A stretch of 36,380 bases of DNA, taken from contig JACRMU010000100.1 of the NCBI GenBank assembly GCA_016219515.1, positions 1-36,380 of the forward strand, written 5' to 3'. The stretch comes from Deltaproteobacteria bacterium (lineage in GTDB: Bacteria > Desulfobacterota > Deferrimicrobia > Deferrimicrobiales > Deferrimicrobiaceae). Below the pieces are notes generated by a model. That model was not told the origin of the DNA. It saw nothing but the letters and a program-made list of their open reading frames with translations, and ran no database searches. Both the position numbers and the translations under genes were made by a program. Of the stretch, positions 4,761 through 10,952 are shown one piece after another (position 1 is the first letter of the stretch; each line of letters begins with the position of its first letter).

Positions 4761-4869
4761 TTTTCTTAAGCCTCTTTAGAGGAAAATGTCCAGAGGAGCG
4801 ATAGCGACGAAGGACTTCCTCGATTCACCCCCTGAGCGGCTTTACCGCGAGGGGCTACCCCGATTCGAA
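4761..4869 (+). other. Structured tRNA-Gly trailer between the tRNA and the terminator
   Basis: This gap has no open frame with coding character. It contains several inverted repeats: CCTCT/AGAGG at 4771-4782 with outer ATTTT/AAAAT arms, GAGGA/TCCTC near 4793-4820, and CCCCT-GA-GCGG paired with CCGC-G-AGGGG at 4829-4854. They are followed by the terminator at 4870-4902. The tRNA-Gly transcript would carry this folded tail; it may be only a processed trailer, or it may persist as a small RNA. Confidence 0.35.
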
Positions 4870-4902
4870 CCCCGGACGCCTAAGGCTCTCCGGGGTTTTT
4901 TT
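4870..4902 (+). terminator. Rho-independent terminator after tRNA-Gly
   Basis: The stem CCCCGGA (4870-4876) pairs with TCCGGGG (4889-4895), with an inner GCC/GGC pair of arms, and is followed by seven Ts (4896-4902). It ends the tRNA-Gly transcript just at the stop codon of the convergent CoA-transferase beta gene. Confidence 0.85.
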
Positions 4903-5639
4903 CAGCCGATCTTGCGCTCGAGGCTCTCCGCGAAGACGGGGTAGTTGTTCCTCAAGATCGGGATCTGCGCGCGCAGGAGCGCCACGTCGTCCGGGGAAGG
5001 CCCCTCCGTGACGGGCACGGACCGCGGTGTGAGGGGGAACCCGGTCTCCTTCTGCGCCTCCTCGAACGTCACCCCCGGGTGGAGAGAGAGCAGGCGCCAC
5101 TCGCCGGCCTGCGTGTCGTACTCCATCGTGCAGAGAGGGGTGACGAGCCGTGTCGGCCCGCCGCGGCGCCACGGATATTGCGGCGTGTCCGCCGCGGAGG
5201 TGACGAAGTCGCACTTCTCCACGAAGATCCGCGGGGAGTGCGACAGCGCAAACAGGACGACGCGCTTCGTCATGTAGTAAAGCATCGCCGATCCCGCTCC
5301 TCCGGGAAGCCGCACCTTCGGAGCGTCGTACGGCCCGATGCAGGTGAGGTTGAGGTTCCCTTTCCGGTCGATCTGCGCCCCGGAGAGGAAGAAGAGGTCG
5401 AGCTTTCCCCGCTGGGCGAGGTCGAACAGCTCCTTGGACCCTTCCGTCACCGGCGTTTCCCCCGCGCCCAGCAGGAGGTACTTCCCATGGCGGGCGTGGG
5501 ACGCCTGCGCATGCAGGACTCCCAGCAGCGGCACGGGGGAGAGGGTCCCGACCGCCGTCCGCTCGAAATCGCGCACCTCGCGGGAAATGCGGAATGCGAG
5601 GAACTCGTCTACGGTGCATCCGGGGAAGAGGAAGGGCAT
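4902..5639 (-). CDS. CoA-transferase family I, beta-type subunit (GctB/IpdB-like)
   Basis: The 245-residue product has the beta-subunit fold of two-component CoA transferases (glutaconate or 3-oxoacid CoA-transferase type). Recognisable segments include VGTLSPVPLLGVLHAQ, the strand-turn LLLGAGETP (residues 55-63), SGAQIDRKGNLN and RIFVEKCDFVTS. In GctB-type enzymes the turn after this strand carries the catalytic glutamate (E54 of Acidaminococcus, in a FESG-like motif); here the aligned residue appears to be G58. IpdAB-type ring-opening hydrolases also lack it, so thioester transfer cannot be assumed. I start at the ATG at 5639, where the family N-terminus begins and a GGAGG lies about 9 bases upstream; the longer open frame runs into the alpha gene. 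It lies 2 bases downstream of the alpha gene and is the last gene of the liv operon. Confidence 0.85.
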   Translation of the reverse strand: MPFLFPGCTVDEFLAFRISREVRDFERTAVGTLSPVPLLGVLHAQASHARHGKYLLLGAGETPVTEGSKELFDLAQRGKLDLFFLSGAQIDRKGNLNLTCIGPYDAPKVRLPGGAGSAMLYYMTKRVVLFALSHSPRIFVEKCDFVTSAADTPQYPWRRGGPTRLVTPLCTMEYDTQAGEWRLLSLHPGVTFEEAQKETGFPLTPRSVPVTEGPSPDDVALLRAQIPILRNNYPVFAESLERKIG

Positions 5640-5641
5640 GG

Positions 5642-6499
5642 CTACGCCACCTCCGCCGCAGACGTCGCCGCCCGGTACCGTTCCTCCGTCATCCCCATCA
5701 CGTACTCCGCCAGGTAGGAGGAGAACCCTTCGGCGGTCTTCGAGGCCGCAAGGTACTTTTCCACGTGGGCGCGGTCGATCCCGTAGGCGTTGACGCAAGC
5801 ACCGGGGTGGGCACCCCGCGGCGCGACGACGACCAGGTCGATGTGCAGGGCGGAGAGGAAGATCTCGCCGGGACGCGCGACGAAGGCGTCCGCCGGCACG
5901 ATCTCTTCCACGGTGACGACGGTCCGTTTCGCCGCGAGCACCGCCAGGCGGTCGGATTCGCGGGCGGAGCAGATCGCGTTTCCGTTTTCGTCGCCCCGGA
6001 TCGCGTGGATCGCCGCCCAGTCGGGCACGATCGCCGGCACCACGAAAATCTCTTTCCCGGTGTAAGGGTCCGCAAGCCGCCGGAAATCGGCGCGGACTTT
6101 CTCGTAGTCGGATCCCGCGAAACCCAGCACAGGGGAAAACGGCAGCCCGGCGGCTCCAGCCTGGAGCCCTGCGAGGATGCCGGGTCAGGAGTGCTCGCGG
6201 GTGGCAAGCCTCCCCGATTCGACCGCCCTGCGGAAGTTGGGCGCCATCCCGAATTCCCCTAAGGAGATTTGGGGGAATTCCACGGAGCGCGCGCAGCCCG
6301 CCCCGGCCAGCATGTCGACGTTGATCCCCCCGATGGGGGAGCAGACGATGTCGAGGTCCTTCTTTCCCTGCCGGATCAGCTCCCGCACCATCGCCATCGG
6401 GGGCATGACCATCGCGCCGCCGACCGCTACGCGGGAGCCGGACGGGATGGCGGCCGCCGCTTCGGCAAGAGGGACGAATTTCGCCTGGTTCAACGACAT
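5642..6499 (-). CDS. CoA-transferase family I, alpha-type subunit with in-frame TGA (possible selenoprotein or broken gene)
   Basis: This is the alpha partner of the beta gene. Residues 1-104 contain the family segments VAVGGAM and IVCSPIGGINVDML. After one TGA (6185-6187, codon 105) the same frame continues with PGILAGLQAGAAGLPF, PVLGFAGSD, the PYTGKE segment and AYGIDRAHVEKYL, ending at a TAG 2 bases before the beta gene. Read through, it is 285 residues, a normal length for the family. No frame change is needed, and the coding character does not drop after the TGA. A glutamate three residues before the TGA (E102) may match the active-site Glu of IpdA (remembered position near 105, not checked). 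The start has GGAGG 5 bases upstream. A SECIS-like hairpin follows the TGA. The alternatives are nonsense mutation or base-calling error; livH in the same operon is also damaged. Substrate unknown. Confidence 0.78.
6146..6184 (-). promoter_or_regulatory. SECIS-like two-tier hairpin directly after the in-frame TGA
   Basis: On the transcript, the six bases right after UGA (CCCGGC) pair perfectly with GCCGGG at positions 34-39. A 10-base left-hand bulge follows, then a 7-bp upper stem GGCUCCA/UGGAGCC with apical loop GGC. The apical loop begins 24 bases after UGA and has G in its first two positions. These are the size, distance and loop features expected of bacterial SECIS elements such as that of E. 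coli fdhF. High GC makes chance hairpins common, so this is a candidate only. Confidence 0.45.
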
Positions 6500-6542
6500 G
6501 AGGTCCTCCGATCCGTTGTCGGGTTCTACCGACAGTATCTCA

Positions 6543-7250
6543 CTACTGCCTTCCCCCGAGGTAGGCCTCCTTGATCTTCGGGTCGTTTCGAAGTTCCGAG
6601 GACGTCCCCTGGTGGGCGATCCTGCCGGTCTCCAGCACGTAGGCGTAGCCGGAGGCCTTGAGCGCCTGCCGGGCGTTCTGCTCCACCAGGAGCACGGTGG
6701 TGCCTTCCGCGTTGATCTCGCGAAGGATGCGGAAGATGTCGGAGACGACGAAGGGGGCGAGCCCCAGCGAGGGCTCGTCCAGCAGGAGAAGTTTCGGCCG
6801 GGCCATCAGGGCGCGCCCGATGGCCAGCATCTGCTGCTCCCCTCCGGACAGGAAGCCGCCCCGCTGCCCCTTCCGCGCTGCGAGCGCGGGGAAACGCGCC
6901 AGAATGCCGTCCAGGTCTTTCCGGACCTCCCGGTCTCTCCGGTGGTAGGCGCCCATCTCGAGGTTCTCCAGGACCGTCATCCGGGAGAGGATCGCCCTCC
7001 CCTCGGGGACGAGCGAGATCCCTTTCCGGACGATCGCCGCGGGAGAGAGCCCGGCGATCTTTTCCCCCTCGAAGGAGATATTACCGCTTGCGGGAGCCAG
7101 CAGGCCGGTGACCGTTTTCATGAACGTCGTCTTCCCGGCGCCGTTGGCCCCCAGGAGGCAGACGACGCTGCCCGGCGCCACGTCGAGGTCGATCCCCTTG
7201 AGCGCCTTGATGTTCCCGTACGACGTCGCGAGCCCCCGGACCTCAAGCAT
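6543..7250 (-). CDS. livF: Branched-chain amino acid-type ABC transporter ATPase
   Basis: LivF is one of the two ATPases that drive the LIV/HAAT-family importer at the inner membrane. Walker A is GANGAGKTT at residues 34-42, the signature is LSGGEQQMLAIGRALM, and Walker B is LLLLDEPSLGLAP; the H-loop position is VLLVEQN, with Q-N in place of the usual E-H, as is normal in LivF. The 235-residue length is typical. It overlaps the end of livG by 8 bases and is followed after 42 bases by the CoA-transferase pair, suggesting that the imported compound is then handled as a CoA ester. The true substrate could be an amino acid, amide, or aromatic or aliphatic acid. Confidence 0.93.
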   Translation of the reverse strand: MLEVRGLATSYGNIKALKGIDLDVAPGSVVCLLGANGAGKTTFMKTVTGLLAPASGNISFEGEKIAGLSPAAIVRKGISLVPEGRAILSRMTVLENLEMGAYHRRDREVRKDLDGILARFPALAARKGQRGGFLSGGEQQMLAIGRALMARPKLLLLDEPSLGLAPFVVSDIFRILREINAEGTTVLLVEQNARQALKASGYAYVLETGRIAHQGTSSELRNDPKIKEAYLGGRQ

Positions 7251-8022
7251 CGCCGCCGTCCTCCTCTTCCTTTCCGAGGTAGGCCTCGATCACTTGCGGA
7301 TTTCCGCGGATCTCCTCCGGGGTGCCTTCCGCGATCTTCCGGCCGAAATTCAGGACGACCAACCGGTCGCACACGTTCATGACGAGCGACATGTCGTGCT
7401 CGATCAGCAGTACGGTGACGCCCAGGGCGCGGATCGCAAGGATCAGCCGGTGGATCTCGCGGGTCTCGCTCTCGTTCATCCCGGCGGCCGGCTCGTCCAG
7501 CAGGAGGAGGCGCGGCTCGGCGGCCAGCGCGCGCGCGATTTCCAGACGCCTCTGGTGGCCGTAGGGCATCTTTCCGGCAGGGGATTCCTCGTATCCCGCA
7601 AGCCCCATGAACGCAAGAAGCTCATCCGTCTTCTCGCGGATGCGCCCCTCCTCGGCGCGCTGGGTCCCCGTCCGAAGCACGCTTCTCCAGATCCCCGCGC
7701 GGCTTCCGGCATGCCGGCCGACCATGACATTTTCCCGCGCAGTCATCTTGGGGAAAAGCCGGATGTTCTGGAACGTCCGCCCGATCCCTTTCCGCGTGAC
7801 GTCGTGCGGTTTCCGACCGGCGATGTCCTCGCTGCGGAAAAGGACCCGCCCCCCGCTCGGCGGGTAGATCGAGGTGACGATGTTGAACAGGGTCGTCTTG
7901 CCGGCGCCGTTCGGGCCGATGAGCCCCGCGATCTCCCCCTCGTTTACCGAAAAGGAGACGTCGTCCACCGCGCTCAGTCCGCCGAAGCTCTTCCGGATGT
8001 CGACCAGCGAAAGGAGCGCCAT
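7243..8022 (-). CDS. livG: Branched-chain amino acid-type ABC transporter ATPase
   Basis: LivG is the partner ATPase of LivF. Walker A GPNGAGKTT is at residues 36-44. The signature region reads YGHQRRLEIARALA, the variant usual in LivG proteins, followed by Walker B LLLLDEPAAGMNE and the switch histidine in LLIEHDMSLVM. The C-terminal segment IAEGTPEEIRGNPQVIEAYLG is characteristic of the LivG family and, at 259 residues, the length fits. It lies one base downstream of livM and overlaps livF by 8 bases, so the ATPases are co-translated. Its membrane partner LivH is broken in this sequence, so the transporter may be non-functional if the break is real. Confidence 0.93.
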   Translation of the reverse strand: MALLSLVDIRKSFGGLSAVDDVSFSVNEGEIAGLIGPNGAGKTTLFNIVTSIYPPSGGRVLFRSEDIAGRKPHDVTRKGIGRTFQNIRLFPKMTARENVMVGRHAGSRAGIWRSVLRTGTQRAEEGRIREKTDELLAFMGLAGYEESPAGKMPYGHQRRLEIARALAAEPRLLLLDEPAAGMNESETREIHRLILAIRALGVTVLLIEHDMSLVMNVCDRLVVLNFGRKIAEGTPEEIRGNPQVIEAYLGKEEEDGGDA

Positions 8023-8023
8023 C

Positions 8024-8971
8024 TCACGATCCTCCCGCGGGTTTTTCCCTGGTCAGCATCGCGACGAGGGCGGGATCGATCAGTCCCTGGGGCCGGAAGA
8101 CCATCGTCAGGACGACGAGGATCCCGTAAACGATGTACCGGTAGTCGCTGATCGCCCGGAGCAGCTCGGGGAGCAGGGTAAGGAGCGTTGCCCCGAAGAC
8201 CGGGCCGAAGAGGGCCTCGCTTCCTCCGAAGACGGCGAACACCAGGATCTCCACCGCGCGGTGATACGTGAAATCGGCCGGGCTGATGTAGGAGGTCGCG
8301 TGGGCGAACAGGGCGCCCGCGAGACCCGAGAGCAGCGCCCCCTGGCTGAAGGCGAGTACCTTGTAGTACGTCGTGTCGATCCCCGACGTCTCCGCCGCCG
8401 TTTCGTCCATCCGGATGGCGGTATAGGCCCTTCCCACGCGGGAGGACAAAAGCCGCAGGAAAAACAGGATCGCGAGAACGACGACCGCCGCCAGGATCAG
8501 GAAGATCGAAAGGCTGATGAACTGGTTGTTCCTCAACCCCCAGTCTTCCGGCGAGAAGCCGGCGGCCTCGACGGCGGCCAGGATCTCCCTTCCCATCTGC
8601 GGAATCGCGGCGATCCCGACGGCCCCTCCCGTCAGCGACTCCCAGTTGATGAACACCACGCGCAGCACCTCGCCGAAGCCGAGCGTCGCGATGGCCAGGT
8701 ACACTCCCCGAAGGCGGAGGGCGGGGATCCCCACGAGAATCCCCGAGACGCCCGCCAGCAGGGACCCGATGACGATTGCCGAGGGGATCGAGAACCCGTG
8801 CTGCGTGGTGAGGATGGCGGAGGCGTACGCCCCGATGCTCATGAACCCTGCGTTGCCCAAGGAAAGCTGCCCCGTGGCGAGCGTGACGTAGATGCTGATC
8901 CCGAGGAGGATGTTGATGAGGATGAAGGAACCGACCTGGAGATGGTAGGGGTTCAGCCACTCGAAGGACAC
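8024..8971 (-). CDS. livM: Branched-chain amino acid-type ABC transporter permease
   Basis: LivM is the second permease of the importer. Starting from the GTG at 8971 (VSFEWLNPYHL...) it has 315 residues, the usual length, with about eight to nine hydrophobic helices. Family segments include LATGQLSLGNAGFMSIGAYASA near the N-terminus, the coupling-helix region RVGRAYTAIRMDETAAETSGID, and the C-terminal VLTMVFRPQGL. An upstream extension of the frame falls inside livH and has low-complexity, non-membrane sequence, so I reject it. The start lies 4 bases after the livH stop. It pairs with LivH in the membrane and with LivG and LivF on the inside. Confidence 0.92.
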   Translation of the reverse strand: MSFEWLNPYHLQVGSFILINILLGISIYVTLATGQLSLGNAGFMSIGAYASAILTTQHGFSIPSAIVIGSLLAGVSGILVGIPALRLRGVYLAIATLGFGEVLRVVFINWESLTGGAVGIAAIPQMGREILAAVEAAGFSPEDWGLRNNQFISLSIFLILAAVVVLAILFFLRLLSSRVGRAYTAIRMDETAAETSGIDTTYYKVLAFSQGALLSGLAGALFAHATSYISPADFTYHRAVEILVFAVFGGSEALFGPVFGATLLTLLPELLRAISDYRYIVYGILVVLTMVFRPQGLIDPALVAMLTREKPAGGS

Positions 8972-8975
8972 GGCG

Positions 8976-9772
8976 TCACCGCTGCATTTCCGGCGGCGCC
9001 TGCCCGAACAGTCCCTGCGGGCGGAGCAGCAGCACCACGATGATCGCGGCGAAGGCGATCGCGTCCCGGTAGCCGGAGCTGCCATAGGCGACCATGAACG
9101 TCTCGGAAAGGCCGAGGATCAGCCCGCCGGCGACCGCGCCTGCGACGCTCCCCATCCCGCCGAGAATGATGATCGCCAGCCCTTTCAGGCCCATCGCCAG
9201 TCCCATCTGGTTGTTGATGTAGTTGAAGGCCATCCCGACCAGGACTCCCGCGATGCCGCCCATCGCGGAGGCGATGATGACCGTGGAGGTGATGATCCCG
9301 GTGGTGTTCACGCCCAGCAGGGCGGCGGTCTCCAGGCTCTCCGCCGTCGCTCGCAGCGCCTTGCCGGCCTTCGTCCGGTGGAGCCAGAGGGAGAGTCCGG
9401 CCATAAGAAGAAGGGAAACCGCCAGGATGGCAATCTGTACGAGATAGACGGTGACCGGCCCGACCTCGAACCGGATCTCCGCGAAAGGGGTCTCGAAAAG
9501 CTGGTTTCCCGCGCCGAACACCTTGTGTGCGACGTTCTCGAGGAGGATGGAAACGCCGACGCGGTGGCTGCGATCGCTCCCAGGAACGCCATCCAGAGCG
9601 GTGCGTGCGCCTTCGTGACGATCAGCATGCCGACGAAGGCCCCGAACATGAAGATCTCTCCGTGGGCCATGTTGATGATGTCGAGCACGCCGAAGACGAG
9701 TGTGTACCCCAACGCCACTACGGCGTAGATGCTGCCGAGGGTGATGCCGTTGATGAGTTGTTCCGCGAACAA
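8976..9772 (-). pseudogene. livH: livH permease gene with internal deletion and frameshift
   Basis: The N-terminal frame begins at a TTG (9772) and gives a clear LivH start: INGITLGSIYAVVALGYTLV and GVLDIINMAHGEIFMFGAF, up to WMAFLGAIAATA. The C-terminal frame then picks up in a different phase with VGVSILLENVAHKVFGAG and runs to the normal end RPQGLFG. Joined, the gene spans 797 bases, not a multiple of three. About 30 residues that normally lie between these blocks (the segment usually containing an ERxAYRPLR-like motif) are missing. Loss of roughly 90 bases near 9550-9570 explains both facts. It is either a genuine pseudogene or a local assembly error. All other liv genes appear intact. 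Confidence 0.85.
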
Positions 9773-9797: not shown

Positions 9798-10952
9798 CTA
9801 TTGGAACATCTGGAACTTCCCGCCCTTGATGATCAGCACGACGGGATCCATGACGACGTCCCTTTCGGCGTCGAAGGAAAACTTTCCGAGGACGCCGTTG
9901 AAGTTCCTGACCTCCGCCAGGGCGTCCCGCAGCATTTTCCGGTCCGCCTTCCCGGCTTTTTTCAGCGCCTCCGCCATGATGTAGAGGGCGTCGTACGCCT
10001 GGGCGGCGAACTGGTCCGGCTTCTTCCCGTACGCCTTCGAGTACCGTGCGACGAAGGCCTTCACCTTCGGGTCGTGCCTCTCGGGATACCACGGGGTGGC
10101 CACGATCAGGCCTTCGGCCGCTTCCTTCGCGATCTCGATCACCTTCGGCGAGTTGAACCCGTTCCCGCCGACGAAGGGCGCCTTGATCCCCATCTTCCTC
10201 GCCTGCGAGAGGATGACCCCGCCCTCCTCGTAGAGCGCGGAGCAGAAGACGGCGTCCGGGGAGAGGTTCTTGATCTTGGTGAGCTGCGCTTTGTAGTCCG
10301 ACTGCCCCTTCTGGAACGTCTCCGTCGTGACGACCGTGAGATGCAGCTCTGCGGCCACCTTCTTCATGGTGTCGTAGCCCGATTTGGTGAACACGTCGTC
10401 GTTGCCGTAGAAGAGCGCCACCTTCTTGATGCTGTATTTCTTCACCGCCTTCTTCACGGAAGCGGGAATGGCGAGCGACTCCGGCAGGGAATTGCGGAAG
10501 ACGTACTTGCCGATCTGCGTGATCCCGGCGGCGGTGGTGGAGGTCCCCATGATGGGGACTCCGCTGGCGTTCGCCTCGGGGGCCACGACCTTCATCTCGG
10601 TGGAGAGCGTCGGGCCCAGTATCGCGGCCACGCGGTCGGAGTTGATCAGTTTCTGCGCGGCCGCCAGCGCCTGTTCCTGTTTCCCGGAGGAGTCCATGAC
10701 GACCAGCTCGATGTTCACTTCCTTTTTCGCGTTGATCTCGTCCCGCGCGAGCTTGAATCCGTTGGTGATCGCCTCGCCGTACCCCGATCCCTGTCCCGTG
10801 ATGATCGAGATCACCCCGATCTTCGCCGGGATCGCCGGTCCCTTCGCCTTGGCGGGCGCGGCCGCTTTCGGCGTGTCCTTGGCGGCGCCCATGAAGACCA
10901 GGGCGAACGCGAGAATCGATATGAGGCAGGTTAGGCGGAATGATCGGGACAT
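9798..10952 (-). CDS. livK: Periplasmic substrate-binding protein of the LIV-type transporter
   Basis: This is the periplasmic type-I binding protein (Peripl_BP_6 style) that captures the ligand for LivHMGF. The 384-residue product has an N-terminal signal (MSRSFRLTCLISILAFALVF) and an Ala/Lys/Pro-rich linker. Two Rossmann-like lobes follow: KIGVISIITGQGSGYGEAITNGF opens the first, and AILGPTLSTEMKVVAPEAN and GVPIMGTSTTAAGITQIGKY form the ligand cleft. The second lobe contains KVALFYGNDDVFTKSGYD. The ligand cannot be read from sequence; this family also binds amides, urea and aromatic acids. The ATG has an excellent AAAGGAGG 5 bases upstream, and a likely promoter lies at 11030-11057. It is the first gene of the operon. 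Confidence 0.92.
   Translation of the reverse strand: MSRSFRLTCLISILAFALVFMGAAKDTPKAAAPAKAKGPAIPAKIGVISIITGQGSGYGEAITNGFKLARDEINAKKEVNIELVVMDSSGKQEQALAAAQKLINSDRVAAILGPTLSTEMKVVAPEANASGVPIMGTSTTAAGITQIGKYVFRNSLPESLAIPASVKKAVKKYSIKKVALFYGNDDVFTKSGYDTMKKVAAELHLTVVTTETFQKGQSDYKAQLTKIKNLSPDAVFCSALYEEGGVILSQARKMGIKAPFVGGNGFNSPKVIEIAKEAAEGLIVATPWYPERHDPKVKAFVARYSKAYGKKPDQFAAQAYDALYIMAEALKKAGKADRKMLRDALAEVRNFNGVLGKFSFDAERDVVMDPVVLIIKGGKFQMFQ

Follow-up and report, generated by a model that had tools for sequence, protein, structure and literature searches.

Comparative evidence for selenocysteine on the catalytic glutamate column of a predicted IpdAB-like alpha subunit of the class-I CoA-transferase fold

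The window analysed here, which is the whole stretch of 36,380 nucleotides from contig JACRMU010000100.1 of a Deltaproteobacteria bacterium (assembly GCA_016219515.1), carries a gene for an alpha subunit of the CoA-transferase fold whose reading frame runs through a TGA, and this raises the question of whether the gene is broken or the codon is read, and if it is read, as which residue and for what kind of chemistry. The initial annotation had proposed a new selenocysteine (Sec) protein of the CoA-transferase family, pointing to a lone TGA in an otherwise full-length gene with conserved sequence on both sides of it. The first of these observations holds, as the frame of 285 codons contains one internal stop only between its ATG and its TAG (Table 1), namely the TGA at codon 105 (6185-6187), and the match to the Pfam CoA_trans domain (PF01144) spans residues 11-203 and crosses it (E = 3.8e-23). 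The gene is accompanied by one for a beta subunit of the same fold, which is the alpha/beta arrangement typical of class-I CoA-transferases, and homologues of livK, livH, livM, livG and livF lie upstream in the same direction. The caution that livH is broken proved correct, since it appears as two overlapping ORFs, the second of which (8976-9521) has the BPD_transp_2 match. The split may represent either an assembly indel or a real pseudogene. An intact livH of 294 aa is present in two relatives (L070 and L074).

Table 1. Positions of the alpha subunit gene, the hairpin that follows its UGA codon and the neighbouring genes within the window.
Feature	Position	Strand	Details
Partner beta subunit, CoA_trans, 245 aa	4902..5639	-	PF01144, E 8.7e-18
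Predicted Sec alpha subunit gene	5642..6499	-	ATG 6497-6499; UGA codon 105; TAG 5642-5644; 285 aa
Whole 39-base element of the initial annotation	6146..6184	-	Lower stem 6179-6184 with 6146-6151
Putative SECIS apical hairpin	6152..6168	-	7-bp stem GGCUCCA/UGGAGCC; GGC loop 6159-6161; 23 nt after UGA
Shine-Dalgarno-like GGAGG	6505..6509	-	5 nt before ATG; read from sequence
livF-like ABC ATPase	6543..7250	-	Pfam ABC_tran; same operon direction
livG-like ABC ATPase	7243..8022	-	Pfam ABC_tran and BCA_ABC_TP_C
livM-like permease	8024..9085	-	Pfam BPD_transp_2
livH-like permease, split over two overlapping frames	8976..9772	-	ORFs 9308-9772 and 8976-9521
livK-like periplasmic substrate-binding protein	9798..10952	-	Pfam Peripla_BP_6, E 2.4e-66

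Comparison with homologues strongly supports the prediction that this in-frame UGA is read as Sec, although incorporation itself has not been measured. Within a first set of 59 relatives, exactly one internal TGA was found in every homologue of at least 46% identity and in one more at 37%, the exception being a contig fragment that covers the C-terminal part alone and stops short of codon 105. The wider samples comprised 395 genomes of the window's phylum and 398 genomes of the phylum to which a Syntrophomonadaceae relative belongs, and altogether a TGA occupies the codon-105 column in 42 distinct homologues, 27 of them in the window's phylum and the other 15 in a second one (Bacillota). The joint alignment of 93 relatives holds, in that column, TGA (42), Asn (26), Glu (9), Cys (5) and Gly (5), with Val, Gln, Ser, Met or His in the remaining six. 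When the tree is inferred by maximum likelihood, one side of a split consists of all 42 Sec rows together with four of the five Cys rows; the split itself is weakly supported (58/59), with strong support for several of the Sec and Cys groups on that side. The sequence is conserved on both sides of the codon, as had been claimed, dN/dS after the TGA being similar to that before it (mostly about 0.12-0.22, highest 0.40; 11 usable pairs).

The idea that TGA is a sense codon throughout the genome, for example for Trp or Gly, has nothing in its favour beyond the open reading frame and can be dismissed, since TGA terminates six other genes of the window (purF, pyrE, slt, livG, livM and the beta gene) and is therefore not a reassigned codon, the nearest sense-codon relatives of the Sec alphas have Cys rather than Trp or Gly at column 105, and the full Sec machinery is present. 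No more credible is the view that the gene is decaying or mis-assembled and that its TGA arose by nonsense mutation or sequencing error. The broken livH of the same operon and the draft state of the assembly (2.09 Mb in 154 contigs, 97.5% complete) would be in keeping with such an origin, but the identical TGA is shared by distinct genes from two phyla, single-contig genomes included, which excludes an error of sequencing, and the codons beyond the TGA are still under selection.

All components needed for the insertion of Sec were detected in the source genome, namely selA (577 bits), selB (298 bits for its main part, 323 when joined in frame with its neighbour), selD (327 bits) and the tRNA-Sec gene selC (74.8 bits against a gathering score of 47). 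According to the initial annotation the proposal would fail if the genome had no sel genes, or if homologues showed an unrelated residue and no Cys at codon 105; with all four genes found, and with an invariant TGA in 42 homologues and Cys in five others, neither objection applies. Of the 42 carrier genomes, 40 have selA (26/27 in the window's phylum and 14/15 in the second). The nearly complete genome G287 has no selA match and a selB over the cut-off, and in G404 (1.2 Mb) neither gene passes the cut-off. Taken alone this co-occurrence is weak evidence, which supports the reading and does not prove it. It was rejected as a discriminator because many genomes of non-Sec relatives also have selA, Sec genes being common in these lineages. 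The selD gene of the window's own genome (L010) also contains one in-frame TGA, and we take it to encode the Sec-type SelD, a known family.

The initial annotation had also described a SECIS-like element of 39 bases directly after the UGA, consisting of a lower stem (CCCGGC/GCCGGG), a 10-nt bulge, a 7-bp upper stem and a GGC loop. Such a structure can be drawn, and its upper stem-loop is the part that is conserved. When 30 genes are compared in the same register the upper stem-loop is paired in 91% of cells, compensatory changes occur at five of its seven pairs, and the covariation score was reached by none of 500 shuffles, whereas sliding the partner strand by a single base lowers the pairing to about half. 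The lower-stem pairs are retained in just 46% of cells, and the lower stem was consequently rejected as a conserved part of the element. A second type of hairpin, characterised by a bulged U and by its GUGC loop, occupies nearly the same place in 11 Bacillota genes (97% paired). Codons +6 to +11 after the UGA form the most synonymously constrained stretch of the alpha gene, and in the window's family Ala is encoded by GCT in 9 of 10 codons at the hairpin compared with 9 of 341 elsewhere.

The bacterial SECIS model calls for a loop of 3-9 nt with a G within its first two bases, an upper stem of 4-16 bp, a spacing of 16-37 nt and an energy of -7.5 kcal/mol or lower (PMC13188914). The hairpin in the window satisfies the model in loop, stem and spacing (Table 1) as well as in energy (-10.7 kcal/mol), and the energy limit is reached in 34 of the 42 Sec alpha genes. 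High GC content favours hairpins, as had been cautioned, and the energy of the window's hairpin by itself lies within what codon shuffling yields by chance (p about 0.27). Single-gene energy was rejected as evidence for this reason, although the family means differ (-10.3 vs -6.3). An Rfam search of positions 4800-6600 of the window gave no match at the gathering score. What speaks for the predicted hairpin is its conservation in the family, together with the covariation and the synonymous constraint found there, and not its energy in the window.

These results also bear on the possibility that the gene is expressed as two separately translated pieces, that is an N-terminal part of 104 aa and a C-terminal part starting from a GTG or ATG further downstream, for which the in-frame GTG at 6130 could serve. 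We regard this as very improbable, as the downstream start codon is not shared by the relatives, those with Cys, Asn or Glu in the column are uninterrupted, the synonymous constraint marks the SECIS hairpin, and the break would hit a residue that appears to be catalytic.

The likely role of residue 105 is indicated by its place in the fold. In an AlphaFold model of the alpha subunit (mean pLDDT 92.7) it is the first residue of a helix (105-117), and the closest known fold is that of IpdA (Z 37.1, rmsd 2.1 Å over 281 residues), with GctA and AibA also close, while the best sequence match in the PDB is AibA/AibB (5mzw). IpdAB is a COCHEA-CoA hydrolase of the class-I CoA-transferase fold and not a CoA-transferase. 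Both phmmer and profile alignments put alpha residue 105 in the column of IpdA Glu105, which holds Glu in the R. jostii structure 6co6 and, in 6coj (PDB title 'IpdAB E105A COCHEA-CoA complex'), Ala. The UGA had been placed three residues away from a possible catalytic Glu, and this has to be corrected, as it occupies the IpdA Glu105 column itself. The predicted location of residue 105 in the active site rests on this alignment with IpdA, and there is no solved complex.

In true CoA-transferases the covalent intermediate is formed by the class-I Glu of beta (Glu54 in GctB). The beta subunit of the window gives profile matches to GctB, AibB and IpdB and has a hydrophobic residue in that column, so that it is without the class-I catalytic Glu. 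When each alpha was paired strictly with its adjacent beta (85 pairs), the class-I Glu was present in all 35 betas whose alpha has Asn, Gly, Val, His or Met at position 105 and missing from all 50 whose alpha has Sec, Cys or Glu, one of the latter betas having an unreadable X and one a gap at the site. Four unlinked betas from genomes of a further Sec family (f8) are likewise without it. The correlation follows clades, and as shared ancestry links the 85 pairs they do not count as independent; the Fisher value of 1e-24 is accordingly not a chance probability. One pair (L065) combines a Glu-type alpha with a beta lacking Glu and is nested among rows whose betas keep it, which suggests that the catalytic switch occurred more than once.

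Because the beta catalytic Glu is gone, the protein is probably not a CoA-transferase, and from the same absence we infer a transfer of catalysis to the alpha subunit; the correlation between the residues is observed, and its functional meaning is deduced from it. The Sec enzyme would then probably be alpha-catalytic and IpdAB-like, an assignment for which there are no activity data. The same inference was drawn from the loss of the beta Glu in the IpdAB paper (PMC5380842). The original proposal of a new Sec protein of the CoA-transferase family stands as far as the selenoprotein is concerned, with 42 TGA and five Cys homologues, the sel genes and the SECIS element behind it, and needs refining with respect to CoA-transferase activity, which is improbable without the beta Glu.

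Among characterised systems, IpdAB (R. jostii 6co6, 6co9 and 6coj E105A; M. tuberculosis 6con) resembles the predicted enzyme in the full-length alpha fold, in the column concerned and in a beta subunit without the class-I catalytic Glu (for its loss in IpdAB see PMC5380842), but it has Glu105 where the window has Sec, and identity is about 30%. GctAB (1poi) and the other class-I CoA-transferases have the superfamily and the alpha/beta gene pair in common with it, yet the Sec-group beta has no counterpart of GctB Glu54 and alpha-105 is Sec instead of Asn, Gly or similar. The AibA/AibB decarboxylase is likewise without the transferase Glu and differs in that AibB has Cys at the beta catalytic column, whereas the Sec-group beta is hydrophobic there and the chalcogen residue is found in alpha. 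With known prokaryotic selenoproteins the family shares the in-frame UGA, a bacterial-type SECIS, Sec/Cys homologue pairs and the sel machinery; unlike them, it has Sec in place of a catalytic Glu and outside any redox motif.

The catalogue of prokaryotic selenoproteins published in a review of May 2026, with its 119 families, contains none of the CoA-transferase fold (PMC13188914). Its CoA-named entries are limited to three unrelated ones, namely CoA-disulfide reductase, HgcA, whose annotation is CO dehydrogenase/acetyl-CoA synthase gamma, and a DsbA-like protein carrying the annotation enoyl-CoA hydratase (PMC13188914). The Sec alpha family is without a model of its own in NCBIfam release 20, general models alone matching below their cut-offs, and no Sec protein of this fold was found in the literature, although a groundwater-MAG survey of unvalidated candidates, cited in the same 2026 review, could list the family. 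We conclude that this is a previously uncatalogued selenoprotein family, unusual both for Sec on a Glu column and for its shifted catalytic subunit. The known selenoproteome gains with it a widespread family whose fold is absent from the catalogue, and Sec at a Glu position without a redox motif offers a test of Sec in non-redox acyl-CoA chemistry. Sec alpha genes are probably annotated as two fragments or as pseudogenes, so that many genomes would need correction, and the alpha/beta residue switch provides a simple sequence rule that separates true CoA-transferases from IpdAB-like enzymes.

In the mechanism that we propose, SelB and tRNA-Sec would decode the UGA at codon 105 as Sec under the direction of the following stem-loop, and the product would be the alpha subunit of an alpha/beta enzyme of the class-I CoA-transferase fold, with Sec as the first residue of the modelled helix, where IpdA has its catalytic Glu105. 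Most likely the selenolate would act as a nucleophile on a CoA-bound substrate by way of a transient covalent selenium intermediate, and the enzyme would cleave or transfer an acyl group derived from a compound that the linked transporter brings in; these steps are inferred, and substrate and product are unknown. To the explanation as a whole, a Sec-containing, IpdAB-like alpha subunit whose selenolate at the catalytic column acts on a CoA-bound substrate, we assign a probability of roughly 0.86. We see even odds for the further proposition that this is a class of Sec-dependent enzymes with the CoA-transferase fold that shifted catalysis from the beta Glu to an alpha selenolate and that performs a new CoA-ester reaction, either through covalent acyl-selenium chemistry or through selenosulfide/CoA chemistry coupled to CoA-disulfide or heterodisulfide reductases.

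The main rival to the acyl-transfer mechanism accepts the selenoprotein and gives Sec a redox role with CoA disulfides, in which it would form a selenosulfide with CoA or a sulfur substrate and be re-reduced by partners resembling CoA-disulfide or heterodisulfide reductases. The neighbours in some relatives fit this as well as they fit acyl transfer, as three Bacillota loci have a rhodanese-domain CoA-disulfide reductase immediately downstream, 8 of 14 loci from that phylum show HdrA/B/C genes upstream of Sec-alpha/beta, and in two loci of family f21, from the window's phylum, the adjoining CoA-disulfide reductase itself contains Sec (SYSAUAVPYY). Most known selenoproteins are also thought to be redox enzymes (PMC13188914). 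On the other hand, the alpha alignment contains neither a CxxU or UxxC motif nor a second invariant Cys, the Sec column is occupied in related enzymes by Glu, which is incapable of redox chemistry, and the reductase and Hdr neighbours are missing from the window's own family, several members of which are linked to a Liv-type transporter instead. A redox role therefore remains possible but falls short of probable, and catalysis by the selenolate on a CoA-bound substrate is the reading that we prefer.

With regard to the genomic context more generally, the neighbourhoods point to organic acid import, CoA chemistry and thiol/disulfide turnover and name no substrate, and no steroid-ring genes were recognised among the neighbours examined, which comprise transporters and CoA-related genes instead. 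The Hdr-linked Bacillota loci (L144, L145, L146, L148, L150, L151, L152 and L154) often also carry an MFS transporter and a second CoA-transferase pair, and the neighbours in family f21 include an MFS transporter and a CMD/AhpD-like protein. The Sec-containing CoA-disulfide reductases of the latter family are found in L087 (ORF from 6810, plus strand) and L093 (ORF from 2, plus strand), where two selenoprotein genes adjoin. In family f8 (L083, L084, L090, L091 and L092) the start of the alpha gene overlaps the end of a NUDIX-domain gene and no beta is adjacent, an intact beta being present elsewhere in four of the five genomes. A CBS-domain sigma-54 activator adjoins several Bacillota Sec-alpha/beta loci (for example at 6968-8845, minus strand, in L145) and may regulate them.
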